A stretch of 64,000 nucleotides of DNA from Armatimonadota bacterium. GTDB lineage: Bacteria; Armatimonadota; HRBIN16. The first letter of the stretch is position 1. Every line of letters begins with the position of its first letter. Under the pieces are notes generated by a model. It searched no databases. It was not told the DNA's origin and was given only the letters and a program-made list of their open reading frames with translations. This document shows, piece after piece, positions 37,740 through 60,293 of this stretch. A program made the translations under genes and the position numbers. The stretch covers positions 248,001-312,000 of the forward strand of contig BPGU01000001.1 in assembly GCA_026003195.1 (NCBI GenBank), in the 5' to 3' direction.

Positions 37740-37879
37740 GGTGTTTGCCTCCGAAGGTAGCACTGACACTCCCGCCCTTTACCACTGGAACGAAACCCTT
37801 CGCCATACGGTCATAGTATAATAGATGCAGAGGAGTGTGGCAAGGTTCTCCAGAACGGCTTGAGCAGGAGGGAGAGACG

Positions 37880-38434
37880 ATGCCACAACCCATTTCGGAA
37901 CGACACCCGCTCAGACAGCTGTTCGGCACGCTGGTAGAGCAGGCGTTTACGCGCGTGCTGCAGGAGTACGAGCCAGACGTTTTGCGCTACATCACGAACC
38001 TGCTGACCGAGTTCACCCATATCGACAACGTCTATCGCATCCGCGATGCTCGAGGCAGGGCGTTGCGCGAAGTGGCGGAGATGCTGGCGGAGGGCGATAT
38101 GCTGCTGAACGCCACCTCCTTTGCTCGCGAGCGTGAGGTGCATCGTCACATCGGCGACTTTACGCTGTTCTGGTCGGGGGTGTATCCCGAGGCGATGCCG
38201 CGCTTGCGCCATGCCCTGAGCAAAGATGCGCTGATCGATTACGTGCAGCAGGGCAAGAAATCGTACTACATCGTTTCGACCTTCGAGGAAGGCGAGTGGC
38301 GACATGAGGCGCCGTTATTCCGCAGGCTTTCGGAACGGTTTGAGCTGTATATGTTCGGGCTGAATCTGGTGCGTCAGGGGTGGGAACGTCTTGCCCGCGA
38401 GCATTTTGACCGCTGGCAGCGCGGATTACAGTAG
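37880..38434 (+). CDS. Conserved hypothetical protein
   Basis: A 184-residue soluble, mostly helical protein without a signal peptide or TM segment. ATG 37880 follows GGAGGGAGAGACG. Recognisable stretches include HIGDFTLFWSGVYPEAMPRL and KKSYYIVSTFEEGEWRHEA, which I recall only as a conserved hypothetical family in Acidobacteria-like genomes. No catalytic motif is evident. Its stop overlaps the convergent glycosyltransferase gene by 9 bp. Confidence 0.75.
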   Translation: MPQPISERHPLRQLFGTLVEQAFTRVLQEYEPDVLRYITNLLTEFTHIDNVYRIRDARGRALREVAEMLAEGDMLLNATSFAREREVHRHIGDFTLFWSGVYPEAMPRLRHALSKDALIDYVQQGKKSYYIVSTFEEGEWRHEAPLFRRLSERFELYMFGLNLVRQGWERLAREHFDRWQRGLQ

Positions 38435-39533: not shown

Positions 39534-40634
39534 TTACTCCTGGACATACGCCTCGGCGATTTGCCGGGCGATGATTCGCCAGTCAAACTGCAGGGCAAAT
39601 TCGCGCAGGTGCGCCCGTGCGGTGAACGAACGGCTCTGTTCTGCGCTGAGAAGCACCTTCTCTGCCATCATCTGTGCATCGTTCGGCGGTGCACTGGCAC
39701 AGACCGTGCCTGCCCACTCGTTGAGCGCAGGAGTGTCTGCAATCACCGCCGGAGTGCCACACGCCAGCGATTCCAGCACCGGCAGTCCGAAGCCTTCCCG
39801 CCAGGAGGGAAAAAGCAGCACATCGCAGCTTTGATACAGATCGCGAAGGCGAAGGTCGTCGCAATCGGCTTCCACCTGAAGGCAATCGGCGATATCGAGC
39901 TCACGTATCAATCGTTGATAGGATCGGGACAGGGGCTGTCCAGCCTTGACCCACCTCACCGGATACCCACTGTGGTGCAGGTGCGCTACTGTGCGTAAGA
40001 CAGCAGGGGTGTTTTTGTAGGGAGCGTTCGAGCCGACATGCAGTATCACTATCTCGTGCGGCTGGAAGCCCAGTTGCTCGCGTTTGCGCCTCCGCAGGTC
40101 GTCCGGCAGGAGAGTGAAGAAGTCCACGTCCACGCCGTCGTACACTGTTTTCACCTTCTGAGCAGGCACCGAAAAGAGACGTATCACATCGCTGGCGGTA
40201 GCGCGGCTACAGGCAATAATGGCATCTGCCTCCATAATGCTCTTCACCATCATCCGGTACAACCAGCGTGCGAGCTGTCGGCTCAAGGAGTGGCGATAGA
40301 TGTTCTCCGTCACCAGCGGGATCAGGTCGTGGCAGGTGACAACCTTGCGGTTCGCTGGCGTGACCGGCACCAGAAAGGACTCACTGTGGTCCACCACGTG
40401 CAGCACGTTGCAGCGAGGCAGGCGTGTCGCCAGACGTTGCAGGTGTCGTTGCGTTGCGAGCACATACAGGACGTGGATAGCTGCCGGTGGCAAGCGCCAT
40501 CGGAGGATCCCGGGAGGATGCCTGCTGACATATCGGATGTCAGAGGGTACAGGCAGGTAGCGATGCATTGCCTGTGTGACGCGATTCATGCTGGGTGCAC
40601 TGTGTGGATGTGCTCGCAAAAGCGTGACGTGCAT
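39534..40634 (-). CDS. Glycosyltransferase (GT1/GT4 fold)
   Basis: A 366-residue GT-B protein. KVVTCHDLIPLVTENIYR and ADAIIACSRATASDVIRLF mark the first domain, VILHVGSNAPYKNTPAVLR and FPSWREGFGLPVLESLACGT the donor-binding domain. ATG 40634 begins at the first beta strand (MHVTLLRAH); a GTG at 40655 is an alternative. First of a two-gene leftward operon with the GT4 above. Confidence 0.9.
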   Translation of the reverse strand: MHVTLLRAHPHSAPSMNRVTQAMHRYLPVPSDIRYVSRHPPGILRWRLPPAAIHVLYVLATQRHLQRLATRLPRCNVLHVVDHSESFLVPVTPANRKVVTCHDLIPLVTENIYRHSLSRQLARWLYRMMVKSIMEADAIIACSRATASDVIRLFSVPAQKVKTVYDGVDVDFFTLLPDDLRRRKREQLGFQPHEIVILHVGSNAPYKNTPAVLRTVAHLHHSGYPVRWVKAGQPLSRSYQRLIRELDIADCLQVEADCDDLRLRDLYQSCDVLLFPSWREGFGLPVLESLACGTPAVIADTPALNEWAGTVCASAPPNDAQMMAEKVLLSAEQSRSFTARAHLREFALQFDWRIIARQIAEAYVQE

Positions 40635-40709
40635 AGTGTCGAATCTTTTCGCCACCTCACCATCGAATCACTTCAGGGATCACCCTAGAGAATCCTGTGC
40701 GTTTTACCG

Positions 40710-40997
40710 ATGATAAAAACAGCAAACAAGCGCAACAAAGAGCGAAAAATGAACGGAGAAAAGCAAAAAAGGAACAAGGAAGCAATAAACCCTGAGGTCA
40801 TGAGTGTGCGAGAGCTTGCGGATTATTTGCGGCTATCTGTGCATACAGTCTACCGGCTTGCTGAGCAAGGCAAACTGCCCGGGCGGAAAGTGGGTAAGCA
40901 CTGGCGTTTTCATCGGGACGTGATTGTTGCCTGGCTGGCAACGTACCGCGAGGAGGATGCGCTGTTCGGGGCTTCCTGTGGAGGTATGGATGAATGA
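40710..40997 (+). CDS. MerR/excisionase-family (BldC-like) DNA-binding protein
   Basis: A 95-residue protein with a lysine/asparagine-rich N-terminal tail and an HTH_17 winged-helix domain: MSVRELADYLRLSVHTVYRL, AEQGKLPGRKVGKHWRFHRD, IVAWL. This is the excY/BldC type used both by phage excisionases and by small chromosomal regulators. Starts at 40749 or 40800 are possible. Its last codons overlap the diguanylate cyclase start by 4 nt, so the two are translationally coupled. Probably a regulator rather than an excisionase because no integrase or attachment site is nearby. Confidence 0.85.
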   Translation: MIKTANKRNKERKMNGEKQKRNKEAINPEVMSVRELADYLRLSVHTVYRLAEQGKLPGRKVGKHWRFHRDVIVAWLATYREEDALFGASCGGMDE

Positions 40998-42331
40998 ATT
41001 TCAGGGGAAGTAGAAACCAGCCGGATAGCGGCGACAGCAGGGCTTCTCTCTCACCGCGTCTGGCGTCCCTGCCCCGGCCCACAGCGAAAGCTATAGAGCA
41101 ACTACTGGATACGATGCTTGTCGCGGTGAGGGGAGACACAGGGGCGATCTGGGTGGAGTACGAGCGCTCGGTGTACACGCTCGCTGTGCGTCAGATGACC
41201 ATCCAGAAAATTCATCTGTTGCAACAAATGATCAAAACAGTGGGGCAATCTCTGCCGATAGTCGTCCAGTGTCAGGAACAGACCTATGCGGTCGTCTACG
41301 CCGGTTACCCCCTGCTCCGGGTCTATATCGCAGTGAAGGTAGAGAAAATCGGTTCTCTCCATCACCGTCTCATGCCCCGCTTCGCGCGCCTAGCGCAAAC
41401 TGTACTACAGGCGAGCAGCTCACCCATCGGCACACCAGCGGAGGACCCCGCCTACCAGGCGTATCGGGTTATCGTGGAGAAGTCTTTGAGGAGGCTCTGC
41501 GAGTTGATGCAGGCGACGGGATGTGCCCTGTTGTGGTTCTCTCCCTGGAGCAGCTCCTGGCATCGGTTTACGGTAGGTAGCGTACCGAGCCGGCTGTACC
41601 AGCAGCTCTGGGAAATGCCTTCACCAGGAGATGGGCTAGATGCATGGGTCAGAGATATGCAGAACCTCATCCAGAGTCGTGGCCACTACTGCATTGCTGA
41701 TGAGATGACCGTTCGCGACGTGGTGAAGGGATGTGTCTTCCTGTGGCGCGAAGAGCCACAGGGTGATTTTAGCGCCGATGAAGCAGAGTGGCTGAGAGTG
41801 ACGGTGCAGATGATAGGGGCTTCTCTGGATGTTCTGGAAACGCAGTCGGAACTGCTGCAAAGGGTGTACCAGGACCCGCTGACCGGTCTGTTCAATCGTC
41901 TTTATTTCGAGGTTGCCTATCGGCAGATTCTCCACGGCGCGCAAAGACATCCTCGCCCGGTATCTTTGTTGCTTATGGACATCGATCGTTTCAAGCGCAT
42001 CAACGATACTTACGGACATGAGACCGGTGATATGGTGCTTCAGGTGGTGGGGCAAGTGCTTCAGCAGGTGCGTGCGGGCGACGTTCCCGCGCGCTACGGT
42101 GGCGACGAGTTTGTGATTTTGCTGCCCGATACCGACAAAACAGGGGCGCGGATACTGGCGCAGCGCCTGCAACACGCCTTGAGGCAGGCTATGGGGCAGC
42201 TGGGCTTGCCCTTCGAGGTCACGCTCAGCATCGGATGTGCGACTGTGAACAACGGTGACACCAGTTTGCTTCTGCTGGCGGACCAGGACATGTATGAGCA
42301 GAAGCGAAGCGGAAAGGCAGCCGTAGGATAG
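40994..42331 (+). CDS. GGDEF diguanylate cyclase
   Basis: A 445-residue protein. The N-terminal ~110 residues are of unknown type, residues ~145-275 look like a GAF-type sensor, and the C-terminus is a GGDEF domain with DPLTGLFNRLYFE, DIDRFKRINDTYGHETGD and RYGGDEFVILLPDT. The active-site motif is intact, and RAGD lies exactly five residues before it, matching the RxxD inhibitory c-di-GMP site. It should make c-di-GMP from two GTP with product feedback. No TM or signal peptide, so it acts in the cytoplasm. Confidence 0.94.
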   Translation: MNFRGSRNQPDSGDSRASLSPRLASLPRPTAKAIEQLLDTMLVAVRGDTGAIWVEYERSVYTLAVRQMTIQKIHLLQQMIKTVGQSLPIVVQCQEQTYAVVYAGYPLLRVYIAVKVEKIGSLHHRLMPRFARLAQTVLQASSSPIGTPAEDPAYQAYRVIVEKSLRRLCELMQATGCALLWFSPWSSSWHRFTVGSVPSRLYQQLWEMPSPGDGLDAWVRDMQNLIQSRGHYCIADEMTVRDVVKGCVFLWREEPQGDFSADEAEWLRVTVQMIGASLDVLETQSELLQRVYQDPLTGLFNRLYFEVAYRQILHGAQRHPRPVSLLLMDIDRFKRINDTYGHETGDMVLQVVGQVLQQVRAGDVPARYGGDEFVILLPDTDKTGARILAQRLQHALRQAMGQLGLPFEVTLSIGCATVNNGDTSLLLLADQDMYEQKRSGKAAVG

Positions 42332-42354: not shown

Positions 42355-42383
42355 TTGACACCTCGTGTGGAGTAAGGTAAACT
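42355..42383 (+). promoter_or_regulatory. Sigma-70 promoter of dxs
   Basis: TTGACA at 42355-42360, a 17-bp spacer and TAAACT at 42378-42383, 39 bp before the dxs start codon. Confidence 0.75.
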
Positions 42384-45851: not shown

Positions 45852-46070
45852 ATGGAAATCCTTCGTGTACAAATAGGCGATGAGGTGATATTACGCAAGC
45901 CTCATGCTTGTGGAGCCAATCGCTGGCGGGTGGTACGGCTGGGGACAGATGTGGGTCTGGTTTGCACATCCTGCAACAGACGCATCTTGCTGCCCCGCGA
46001 TGAATTCGATCGACGCCTGCGCCAGCGCTTGCCGGGGGAGGAAAGGGAAAATGAAACGCCTGGCGGCTAG
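45852..46070 (+). CDS. DUF951-family small zinc-site protein
   Basis: A 72-residue protein matching DUF951 in layout: VQIGDEVILRKPHACGANRW, then VRLGTDVGLVCTSC and ILLPRDEF. The conserved cysteines (HAC and CTSC) probably bind zinc. The family is widespread next to ribosome- or chromosome-related genes, function unknown. ATG 45852 is chosen; an upstream ATG at 45810 has no ribosome site. It overlaps the next gene by 20 nt. Confidence 0.8.
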   Translation: MEILRVQIGDEVILRKPHACGANRWRVVRLGTDVGLVCTSCNRRILLPRDEFDRRLRQRLPGEERENETPGG

Positions 46071-47133
46071 CATCCTCCTGGGTTGGGGATGCCTGTGTAT
46101 GGCGTATGCGCAGAAGGAGGAGAAAGTGACATGGTCCCTCCAGAGCACACAGGTGTCCCTCGTTCCCTTCCACCAGTTTGTCGGGGCGACGGAGCCTGCC
46201 GACGTTCTGAACGCCATCGCGCGCTGGGCGGGATGGGACGAGGGAGAGAACCTGGTCTGCGAAAGCAGCCATGACCAGCTGTGCGCGGTGGCTCTGCAGT
46301 GGAAGCGAACATGGACACTGGCTTTATGGAACCACTTGCCACAGAAGGTGCAGGTAACGATAGAAGGCGAGCTGCCTGCAGGGGTCTACACCACAGAGCG
46401 TTTGACGCTGGCGAGCGGAGGGGAAATCGTCGCTGTAGAGCGGCGCAACGGGCTGTTGCAGAGCGGGAGGAGTAAAAGAGTGCAGCGGATCGAGTGGCTT
46501 CCCGCTAACACAGGCTTGGTACTGCGCTTTGTGGAGAGAACGCAGAGAATCGATCAAACGCTCTTCGCTCTCAGGAAGTCGATATGGCAAAGCAGAGCGC
46601 CAGCTGGGGTGCTGTCCCGCTGCACTTCGCTCCTGCGTGAGGCAGATAGCCACTGGCATCAGGTGCGGGCAAGCCTGCGCAAGGGAAATGTGCGGATGGG
46701 AGCACGCGGCGTACATCGGATGCTGTTCCTGACGAGTGGGATTAGAGCAGTGGCGTCTCAGTATGCTGTCTTGAAGGAAGTGACCGGCGAGGCAGAGGCG
46801 CTGATTGATTCCCTGTCGGAACTCTCGTCGGCGCTGTTAAACGTGGTCGTGGAGGTATCGCAGAGCGAACAGGCTGTTAGGGTGAAGGTGGTCAACGCTG
46901 GCCACGAAGTCTGGAAAGCGCTGCGGCTTGCCCTGGAGCCATCGTCGGAGGCAGACACGGTAGTGCTGGCAAATATCAGACCGATGGAGCGGGCGGAAGT
47001 CTCTTTCCAGCCTTCAAAGGAGCAGACGATGCCCGTCGTCGTGGTGAGCGTGCTGTTCCACAACGGATATACCCGTCTGAAAGTATCCTGTGGTAGTATG
47101 GACAGTGATGCACAAAAGGAGGCAGAGCCATGA
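46051..47133 (+). CDS. Secreted protein of unknown function
   Basis: A 360-residue protein with a signal peptide (ASILLGWGCLCMAYAQK). It has a beta-rich middle (VTIEGELPAGVYTTERL), a helical part around residues 190-260 and a C-terminal beta-sandwich-like tail (VVVEVSQSEQAVRVKVVNAGHEV). It is followed with a 4-nt overlap by the Ig/TPR gene, so the two products probably act together outside the inner membrane. GGGGAGGAAAGGGAAA precedes the ATG. No family recognised. Confidence 0.7.
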   Translation: MKRLAASILLGWGCLCMAYAQKEEKVTWSLQSTQVSLVPFHQFVGATEPADVLNAIARWAGWDEGENLVCESSHDQLCAVALQWKRTWTLALWNHLPQKVQVTIEGELPAGVYTTERLTLASGGEIVAVERRNGLLQSGRSKRVQRIEWLPANTGLVLRFVERTQRIDQTLFALRKSIWQSRAPAGVLSRCTSLLREADSHWHQVRASLRKGNVRMGARGVHRMLFLTSGIRAVASQYAVLKEVTGEAEALIDSLSELSSALLNVVVEVSQSEQAVRVKVVNAGHEVWKALRLALEPSSEADTVVLANIRPMERAEVSFQPSKEQTMPVVVVSVLFHNGYTRLKVSCGSMDSDAQKEAEP

Positions 47134-49763: not shown

Positions 49764-50300
49764 GTGCGAGCACAGCCCAATCCGCAAAAAGTGGCGCAGG
49801 TTGAACAGATTCGTCAGTGGCTGAGCACGTCAAAGGGCGTAATCTTCACCGATTATCGCGGGCTGAACGTGTCTCAGATTACCCAGCTGCGCCGACAGCT
49901 TCGCCAGAATCAGGCGGAGTATCGTGTGGTGAAGAACACGCTGTTCAAAATCGCGGCGCAGGAGCTGGTCAGCGATAACCTGGACGACATCCTGGAAGGT
50001 CCGACTGCCGTTGCCTTTATTCACGGCGACGAGGCTGCGACTGCCAAAGCGATCGCAGACGCTATCCGCGACCTGCGCGTGCTGACGATCAAGGGAGCTG
50101 TTCTGGGCGGTAAGCGTTACAGCGCGGACGCGGTTCAGCAGCTGGCAAAGCTGCCGCCACGCGAGGTGCTGATTGCCCAGGTAGTGGGTGGAATGCAGGC
50201 GCCGATTACCGGACTGGTGGGCACTCTGCATGGTATCCTGCGTGACTTCGTATACACCGTTCAGGCGATAGCCGACAAGAAATCTACGCAAAGCGCGTAA
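49764..50300 (+). CDS. rplJ: 50S ribosomal protein L10
   Basis: A 178-residue protein, stalk base of the large subunit that carries the L7/L12 dimers. GVIFTDYRGLNVSQITQLRR and YRVVKNTLFKIAAQE are typical; the C-terminal helix for L12 binding is present. GTG at 49764 follows AAGGAGGTGGATACCGC. It is 15 nt before rplL. Confidence 0.97.
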   Translation: MRAQPNPQKVAQVEQIRQWLSTSKGVIFTDYRGLNVSQITQLRRQLRQNQAEYRVVKNTLFKIAAQELVSDNLDDILEGPTAVAFIHGDEAATAKAIADAIRDLRVLTIKGAVLGGKRYSADAVQQLAKLPPREVLIAQVVGGMQAPITGLVGTLHGILRDFVYTVQAIADKKSTQSA

Positions 50301-50315
50301 GGAGGGAATATCACC

Positions 50316-50714
50316 ATGGCATTGACCAAAGAAGAGATTATCGAAGCCATCAAGAGCATGAGCGTGCTCGAGCTGAACGAGCTGGTCAAGGCGCTGCAGG
50401 AGGAGTTCGGTGTGACGGCGGCTGCCCCGGTAGCGGTGGCTGCAATGCCGGGTATGGCGCCTGCAGCTGGCGCAGCGGCGGAAGCCGCTCCTGAGGAGGA
50501 GAAGACGTCCTTCGATGTCATCCTCAAGTCGGTGGGCGATAAGAAGATCCAGGTCATCAAAGTCGTGCGCGAGATCACCAACCTGGGCTTGAAGGAAGCA
50601 AAGGACCTGGTGGAAAGCGCACCACAGCCCATCAAGCAGGGCGTCACCAAGGAAGAGGCAGAGCAAATCAAGGCGAAGTTCGAAGCCGAAGGCGCCACCG
50701 TCGAAATCCAGTAG
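50316..50714 (+). CDS. rplL: 50S ribosomal protein L7/L12
   Basis: A 132-residue stalk protein that recruits translation factors. The helical N-terminal dimerisation domain ([18 protein letters not shown]), an Ala/Pro/Gly-rich hinge and the C-terminal domain ([20 protein letters not shown]) are all present. GGAGGGAATATCACC precedes the ATG. Confidence 0.98.
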
Positions 50715-50843: not shown

Positions 50844-51404
50844 ATGAATCGGGTCAGGCTGGCTGCTGCGCTACTCTGTGGCTGCGTATGGCTCGGCGGC
50901 ATGGGGTGTGCCACACGGCGGGAACACCGGAATACCCCTCCACCGCCGCGTCAGCCAGAACAGCAACGAGCGCACTTGCCCCCTCTGCAGGTGGAAACAG
51001 AGGGACTGCGCCTCATGTGGCTGGAGCCGGGCAACCCCAGCCAGATGGTGTGGGAGGCAGTGGTGCCTCGTGCGGAAGCCAAGAGCGCTCAGGCAGGAGC
51101 AACAGGCGTCTTTGAGAACGTGCAGTGTGTGCTGTACGAAAAGGGACAGCCGACGACCGACCTGCGTGCCGGGCGGGTGCGTGCGTTGCAAAAACAGTGG
51201 CGCATCGAGGCAAGCGACGGCGTTCGCGCCTCTTCCCGGGTGAACGGTGTGCGCCTGCAGGCAAAGGAAGTGATATGGCTGGCACGCCAGAATCGTCTGA
51301 TAGCACGGGGAGATGTGGTTCTCACGGGCAAGCAGTTCAGCCTGCGTGCTCAAGAGGTGGAACTGGATACCGCTTTGCAAGTGATGAGGGTCTCCTCCCC
51401 GTGA
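50844..51404 (+). CDS. LptC-like LPS export periplasmic protein (possible lipoprotein)
   Basis: A 186-residue protein. The N-terminus ends in LGGMGC, a weak lipobox, followed by a Pro/Gln-rich linker. The rest has the repetitive short strands of the LptC/OstA beta-jellyroll (FENVQCVLYEKGQPTTDLRA, GVRLQAKEVIWLARQNRLIA, RGDVVLTGKQFSLRAQEVEL). It would hand LPS from the inner-membrane exporter to the LptA bridge. First gene of a close run with LptA-, LptB- and LptF/G-like genes. A lipid-anchored form differs from the TM-anchored LptC of E. coli. Confidence 0.72.
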   Translation: MNRVRLAAALLCGCVWLGGMGCATRREHRNTPPPPRQPEQQRAHLPPLQVETEGLRLMWLEPGNPSQMVWEAVVPRAEAKSAQAGATGVFENVQCVLYEKGQPTTDLRAGRVRALQKQWRIEASDGVRASSRVNGVRLQAKEVIWLARQNRLIARGDVVLTGKQFSLRAQEVELDTALQVMRVSSP

Positions 51405-51427
51405 GTGTGGCAGAAGGAGTAAAGTGT

Positions 51428-51982
51428 ATGAGATTAACGCTAAAACTGATACCATTGGTCTGGCTCATTGTCGCAGCCTTGCCCGCTCTGGCGCAGGTAC
51501 AGGTTGGACAATACCGGCTCAGCCGCTATCAGCAGATTGTCACCGAGTATAAGAAGGATGGAACCGTTACGGTGAAAGTAACGGGAAATCGCGTGGTGCT
51601 GGAAAGCACCGACGGACAGATGCGTATGGAAGCCAGCGCCATCGTCGCGGAGTCGCGTTTGCAAACAGGGCAGGAGACCCGTTTGCTGCGAGCACGAGCC
51701 GAGGGGCAAGTCACTTTCCGCCTCGTCCAGTCTAAGGAGAAACGCACCGCGCAGGGCAGGGCAGGGGTAGTGCTTTATGACGACGCCACCCGCCAGATAA
51801 CATTGCAGAACGGTGTATTCGTGCAGGTAGACGACCCGCAGTTTCTGGCGACCCAGAGGGGCGATAAAGGAACGATTTACCTGGGAGAGGAGGACTTGCG
51901 CGTGGTGCTGGAGGGCGACCCTGAGCGCACCGAAACCGTCATTCAGCCCAAGCGCCCGCCTGCTGAGGAGAAGAAGGGATGA
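51428..51982 (+). CDS. LptA/OstA-like periplasmic LPS-bridge protein
   Basis: A 184-residue protein with a signal peptide (IPLVWLIVAALPALAQ) and a beta-jellyroll pattern (KDGTVTVKVTGNRVVLESTD, ASAIVAESRLQTGQ, RAGVVLYDDATRQITLQNGV). It probably forms part of the periplasmic bridge carrying LPS. ATG 51428 is supported by the signal peptide; the long open frame upstream is spurious. It overlaps lptB by 4 nt. Confidence 0.75.
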   Translation: MRLTLKLIPLVWLIVAALPALAQVQVGQYRLSRYQQIVTEYKKDGTVTVKVTGNRVVLESTDGQMRMEASAIVAESRLQTGQETRLLRARAEGQVTFRLVQSKEKRTAQGRAGVVLYDDATRQITLQNGVFVQVDDPQFLATQRGDKGTIYLGEEDLRVVLEGDPERTETVIQPKRPPAEEKKG

Positions 51983-59936: not shown

Positions 59937-60293
59937 TGGTGGAGGCGGAGGGACTCGAACCCTCGTCCAGAGTGATTTGCCCCAGGCGTCTACGAGCGTA
60001 GCCATCGTTTGGCATCTCGCTCTCGGGTACGCCCGATGGCAGGCTTACCCTAGAGCCAGTTCACCCTGCGCTTTCGCCCGAACGGCGGTGAACGCTTCCG
60101 TTCAGGCTAGCCGGCATCGCACACGCCCACATCCGCCTCGGCCGGCAGGAGGCGGCAGGACGGCTGCCTCTAATTAGGCAGCGAGAGCGTACTGAGGAGT
60201 CGCTCTTATTTTTTTGCCGCTTTTTTACGAGGCCAACGGCACCTCGGCTCGCAGCCTGAGCGCGCCTCTACCCTGTCGACACCAATCGCCCCC
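59937..60293 (-). ncRNA. ssrA: Transfer-messenger RNA (tmRNA)
   Basis: A one-piece tmRNA of ~357 nt. The 5' end GGGGGCGATTGGTGTCGACA pairs with the 3' CGCCTCC before CCA (7-bp acceptor stem), and the 3' end has the T-arm GGGTTCGAGTCCC and an encoded CCACCA. The tag frame can be read as GKKIRATPQYALAA followed by TAA at the expected place, ending in the usual ALAA. It rescues stalled ribosomes with SmpB and marks proteins for degradation. The resume codon (GGC) is inferred from position and frame. Confidence 0.95.

Follow-up and report, generated by a model that had tools for sequence, protein, structure and literature searches.

BldC of Streptomyces (6AMA/6AMK) is a minimal MerR-like winged helix-turn-helix (HTH) protein with no effector domain, and it is described as binding direct repeats as head-to-tail multimers (PMC5859096). 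In Streptomyces venezuelae, BldC is reported to be a global regulator whose many targets include cdgE, a diguanylate cyclase gene that it activates directly (PMC6428758). Mycobacteriophage Pukovnik Xis (4J2N) and RdfS (PMC11963761) are winged-HTH proteins of the HTH_17 kind. In E. coli, the BluR-BluF-ycgZ and MlrA-DgcM-PdeR systems are described as combining a MerR-like regulator with a partner that carries sensor or c-di-GMP domains, and BluR and MlrA themselves carry C-terminal effector domains (PMC3509220, PMC5052742).

We analyzed a 64-kb stretch of DNA, called the window here, from an Armatimonadota genome of 4.58 Mb in 29 contigs (G000), together with the other members of a genus sample that comprises ten genomes with G000 counted in. 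In the window, a gene for a small DNA-binding protein of the HTH_17/excisionase family overlaps a gene for a diguanylate cyclase (DGC). The small protein resembles BldC in being a minimal MerR-like winged HTH without an effector domain, which also sets it apart from BluR and MlrA, and it is of the same HTH_17 winged-HTH kind as Xis and RdfS. Unlike BldC, whose described sites are direct repeats (PMC5859096), it is preceded by a conserved palindrome, and what we find is one overlapping regulator-cyclase gene pair. Unlike Xis and RdfS, it has no integrase context and is chromosomal, vertically inherited and paired with a cyclase. Adjacent genes beside a divergent operon are shared with BluR-BluF specifically, whereas the degenerate EAL domain reported for BluF (PMC3509220) differs from the intact GGDEF domain here. 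As modules, the E. coli systems are not homologous to this pair. Among the open-access papers listed, none describes an HTH_17 or BldC-like gene that shares an operon with a cyclase gene.

Our preferred reading, to which we give about an even chance, is that the pair forms a genus-restricted two-gene module of an autoregulating HTH_17 protein and a sensing cyclase. A precedent in its favor is the direct activation of cdgE by BldC, the nearest solved transcription factor. A more specific version is speculative and, in our judgment, doubtful: an effector-less winged HTH of the BldC/Xis type would, through its obligate pairing with the cyclase, respond either to c-di-GMP or to the state of the partner's sensor, giving a self-contained, genus-private autoregulatory switch of transcription. 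Proteins of the HTH_17 kind abound, most of them carry no annotation beyond "excisionase family", and the input is known for few. A fixed partner enzyme and a candidate operator provide one such protein with a testable job. If the reading is true, regulator-cyclase modules would extend to Armatimonadota, where the papers listed, judged by title and abstract, include no conspicuous study of c-di-GMP.

Conservation of the gene pair

The open reading frames at 40710-40997 (+) and 40994-42331 (+) share an ATGA overlap in the window, as first described. The cyclase is full length or almost so in nine of the ten genomes of the genus. In all nine, the HTH gene adjoins it, so a lack of conservation, which the preliminary description had named as speaking against it, is not observed; the HTH gene is full length in eight, and G005 keeps its 3' part at a contig start, so that the region 5' of the pair is unassembled in this single draft genome. 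Neither gene is seen in the remaining genome, G007, which is 77% complete and whose contig stops within the glycosyltransferase gene. The pair appears to be private to the genus. The sensor part of the cyclase is present in 9 of 291 genomes of the phylum, all from this one genus, and the close relatives of the HTH protein (E ~1e-50) are confined to the eight genomes with the full-length gene, the next matches being generic HTH_17 proteins at E values of at least 1.9e-17. In 43 of the HTH_17 loci elsewhere in the phylum, viewed with flanks of at most 1.5 kb, there was neither a fusion of HTH_17 to GGDEF nor a neighboring GGDEF gene. Translations read by eye show other combinations in other Armatimonadota, with HTH_17 placed N-terminal to a response-regulator receiver-like domain at two loci (L033, L043) and to a domain resembling type II/IV secretion ATPases at a third (L038).

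The preliminary description took the two genes to be translationally coupled. The ATGA overlap is exact in seven of the nine genomes. Coupling is plausible, and the overlapping genes would then hold the synthesis of the HTH protein and the cyclase in step. However, coupling is not required. The genes are separated by gaps of 5 bp in G004 and 22 bp in G005, and the cyclase has its own Shine-Dalgarno sequence, GGAGG, at 40980-40984 (+), inside the HTH gene close to its 3' end. The arrangement GGAGG-N9-ATG is present in 8/8 genomes, so the cyclase can be translated independently. Downstream, an alignment read by eye places a sigma-70-like promoter of dxs, TTGACA-N17-TAAACT, at 42355-42383 (+). 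Since dxs has its own promoter, the operon probably consists of just the HTH gene and the cyclase gene.

Most relatives show synteny across the entire stretch, over many kilobases, so the adjacency of the two genes by itself proves little and needs no special cause. Inherited synteny alone might thus explain the pair, with the HTH protein acting elsewhere and the upstream palindrome owned by an unrelated dimeric regulator. We consider this improbable, since an overlap or near-overlap in 9/9 genomes suggests a single transcript and since G005 breaks the synteny yet keeps the pair. In G005, dxs lies on a separate contig with ~5.8 kb of upstream sequence that does not contain the pair, and the glycosyltransferase gene has at least ~580 bp upstream, up to the contig end, with no HTH gene there. 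Retention of the pair despite the lost dxs linkage and a glycosyltransferase that is not close argues for an adjacency beyond mere synteny. The pair, kept where its neighbors change, and not its link to polysaccharide genes, appears to be the stable unit, as judged from one draft genome in which an assembly error is possible. On the G005 contig (L086, 1-4356), the pair is followed immediately by hemB (ALAD), then by a gene of the chlorite-dismutase-like (HemQ-like) kind and a radical SAM gene, a setting that hints at a heme-related context in this genome.

The HTH protein and the upstream element

The start of the HTH gene had been placed at ATG 40710, which is probably wrong. This codon falls within the conserved palindrome, and an in-frame ATG occurs at that position in only 4/8 orthologues, against 7/8 for ATG 40752. 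The true start is probably downstream of 40710, leaving a 5' intergenic region of 40635-40751. From the likelier ATG 40752, the gene spans 40752-40997 (+) and encodes 81 amino acids. ATG 40752 itself is not certain as the start, because the 17 codons that follow it show a flat distribution of differences over the three codon positions (45/55/40), compared with 30/11/180 in the HTH core. This segment seems poorly constrained, and a start at ATG 40800 is possible.

The small protein matches Pfam HTH_17 (PF12728) with 63.4 bits against a cut-off of 27 and the excisionase-family model TIGR01764 with 54.9 bits against 28.8. Its nearest solved structures are Pukovnik Xis (4J2N, E 0.053) and BldC (6AMK, E 0.093). 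The earlier label "BldC-like" is thus apt for domain kinship but not for family membership, since the NCBI BldC model NF033787 scores 18.3 bits, far below its cut-off of 77. We consider HTH_17 protein, with Xis and BldC as nearest solved relatives, to be the apt label. An AlphaFold model of the protein was discarded: it was built from four input sequences, was all-helical with a pTM of 0.49, and had no structural match at E <2.

The same family matches raise the question of whether the protein is a remnant, either a recombination directionality factor or the defence component mad1 of a MADS1 system. Besides TIGR01764, PHROG excisionases (best 7.1e-13), PADLOC mad1 (44.1 bits) and the NCBIfam MADS1 model (60.3 bits) point in this direction; the MADS1 score, however, falls short of its cut-off of 80. 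The preliminary description had named an excisionase beside an integrase as the finding that would speak against it. Among the neighboring window genes scanned with Pfam, we found no integrase, recombinase or transposase and no obvious defence gene, and in the relatives the gene is inherited vertically in synteny. All phage and plasmid matches are below 60% identity, none of them reaching 80% coverage. In addition, the HTH core is under strong purifying selection in the eight genomes (pN 0.057 vs pS 0.70). A remnant of this kind is very improbable.

Immediately upstream of the pair, the alignment of the eight genomes that are assembled there reveals a block, TTTRCCGATGATAATAACRGCAAA, that is conserved in 8/8. 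The best 25-column window has an identity of 0.93, compared with 0.77 for the surrounding stretch, and none of 2000 column permutations reaches it. G002 carries an insertion upstream and is misaligned in a longer alignment, and the shorter stretch was used for these identity statistics. The conserved element is an imperfect 24-bp palindrome, TTTACCGAT-GATAAA-AACAGCAAA (40703-40726, no strand assigned), that spans a -10-like hexamer. Of its 72 arm positions, 51 pair (the dyad score), whereas column permutations average 38.9 (sd 3.0). None of the 300 permutations, which preserve the make-up of columns but ignore the kinship of the eight genomes, reaches this score. The best direct repeat in the upstream region, by comparison, is reached by 26/300 permutations and is not significant. 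A short conserved block, CTAGAG, lies at 40685-40690, 12 bp 5' of the palindrome, and reads CTAAAG in two of the eight genomes.

According to the alignment and the permutations, the palindrome is a good candidate operator. It covers ATG 40710 and the -10-like hexamer GATAAT (GATAAA in the window), ahead of which no TTGACA-like -35 element is visible by eye. A site over the -10 region suggests repression. In our preferred reading, the minimal winged-HTH protein would be a local autoregulator: by occupying this palindrome at the -10 region of its own gene, it would set the output of both the HTH protein and the cyclase. In a search of six genomes for a 25-base pattern with up to three mismatches, the palindrome has exactly one match in each, and so gives no sign of a wider regulon. 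A wider regulon was also dropped on the counts of an 18-base core, which has 13-27 matches per genome with up to three mismatches (both strands, eight genomes), compared with 6-16 for a reversed control; among the matches listed, which extend into those of G008 and stop before those of G009, no non-cognate site has fewer than two mismatches. An RNA leader or c-di-GMP riboswitch was rejected as well, as Rfam gives a tmRNA as its sole match in the window. This tmRNA gene is at 59937-60293 (-) and encodes the tag ATPQYALAA.

The form of the element bears on who binds it. BldC uses direct repeats, to which a winged HTH without a dimerization domain would be more naturally suited (PMC5859096). The site here is a palindrome, so a different regulator, a dimeric one, could own it, as the explanation by synteny alone would have it. 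On the other hand, the residues that form the head-to-tail core of BldC, Phe21, Trp31 and Leu43, correspond to L40, L50 and V61, which are hydrophobic and invariant in 8/8 genomes, and BldC Arg30 corresponds to R49, also invariant in 8/8 (both mapped by eye on the alignment to BldC, with an inferred numbering offset). The BldC binding mode therefore stays open for the HTH protein.

The cyclase and its possible contact with the HTH protein

The cyclase (40994-42331, +) was characterized by Pfam, alignment and AlphaFold/Foldseek. Its GGDEF domain scores 142.3 bits in Pfam. The GGDEF, DPLTGxxNR and D-F-K-ND motifs define active cyclases, and all three, including the active-site motif at G369-F373, are invariant in the 9/9 orthologues. 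The RxxD inhibitory site (I-site), R360-D363, lies five residues ahead of GGDEF and is equally invariant, so both motifs reported intact in the preliminary description are intact in all nine. The enzyme is presumably active. Ten GGDEF and three PilZ matches in G000 indicate that c-di-GMP signaling exists in this genome, and the cyclase, as one of ten GGDEF proteins, would feed a common c-di-GMP pool under product feedback at RxxD. It is plausible that the HTH protein and c-di-GMP act in one pathway.

The sensor part is less readily recognized. In the window protein, residues 1-285 match no Pfam family credibly, a GAF match appears in one of nine orthologues (3.8e-4), and a sequence comparison with solved structures gave no match below E 1.5. 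The "GAF-like sensor" of the preliminary description is thus weakly supported by sequence but better supported by modeling. AlphaFold, run on a 15-row alignment (mean pLDDT 79.7, pTM 0.53), predicts a pair of alpha/beta domains together with a long helix and the GGDEF domain. The top Foldseek matches of this model are bacteriophytochrome diguanylate cyclases (E 4.2e-19). The model aligns over residues ~26-441 with the bacteriophytochrome-activated DGC of Idiomarina (5LLW, 6ET7), spanning the sensor domains, the helical linker and GGDEF, although the whole-chain superposition is poor (rmsd ~32 Å). Tandem GAF-like domains at ~28-140 and ~152-280, ahead of the GGDEF domain, are therefore likely as far as the model can tell, and they may sense a soluble cytoplasmic cue. 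Matches in a viral fold library are mostly phage GGDEF proteins.

The main rival to local autoregulation is direct contact, by analogy with BluF/BluR and DgcM/MlrA/PdeR. The cyclase would bind the HTH protein, and the sensor state or c-di-GMP would release the HTH protein or co-activate it on DNA. The gene order of a MerR-like regulator, a protein with sensor or c-di-GMP domains and divergent targets resembles bluR-bluF-ycgZ as described (PMC3509220), DgcM is reported to co-activate the MerR-like MlrA (PMC5052742), and the obligate adjacency and tightly spaced translation of the pair would suit a complex. However, the EAL domain of BluF is degenerate and has lost catalysis while this cyclase retains all motifs, and apart from its winged HTH the small protein carries no effector domain. 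We regard direct contact as possible but unlikely.

The divergent glycosyltransferase

A GT4 glycosyltransferase gene (39534-40634, -; Pfam Glycos_transf_1) is transcribed away from the pair and is a possible target of it. Its start is ATG 40634, as an alternative GTG at 40655 is not conserved by eye, and the divergent arrangement across a ~75-bp gap is confirmed as first drawn. From this arrangement, it had been proposed that the HTH protein and c-di-GMP jointly control the divergent glycosyltransferase genes as a polysaccharide switch. The intergenic region is short, and the GT4 pair is divergent in each of the eight genomes that are assembled 5' of the HTH gene; with the entire neighborhood syntenic, however, divergence alone is weak evidence. 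The palindrome lies ~70 bp from the glycosyltransferase start and over the -10-like hexamer of the HTH gene itself, and nothing in our analysis ties the glycosyltransferases to a known surface polysaccharide. The idea is further weakened by G005, where the ~580 bp of sequence upstream of the glycosyltransferase is free of an HTH gene and the pair sits beside heme-biosynthesis genes. A polysaccharide switch is unlikely in our estimate.

A 199-aa protein encoded near the glycosyltransferases (37835-38434, +), which reaches the cut-off of no Pfam or NCBIfam family, shows 86-94% identity across the genus and is thus far more conserved than the neighboring glycosyltransferases (55-82%). The genes at 45904-47133 (+), 49830-50666 (-) and 51125-51982 (+), with no Pfam match at 1e-3, are retained in several members of the genus at moderate identity.
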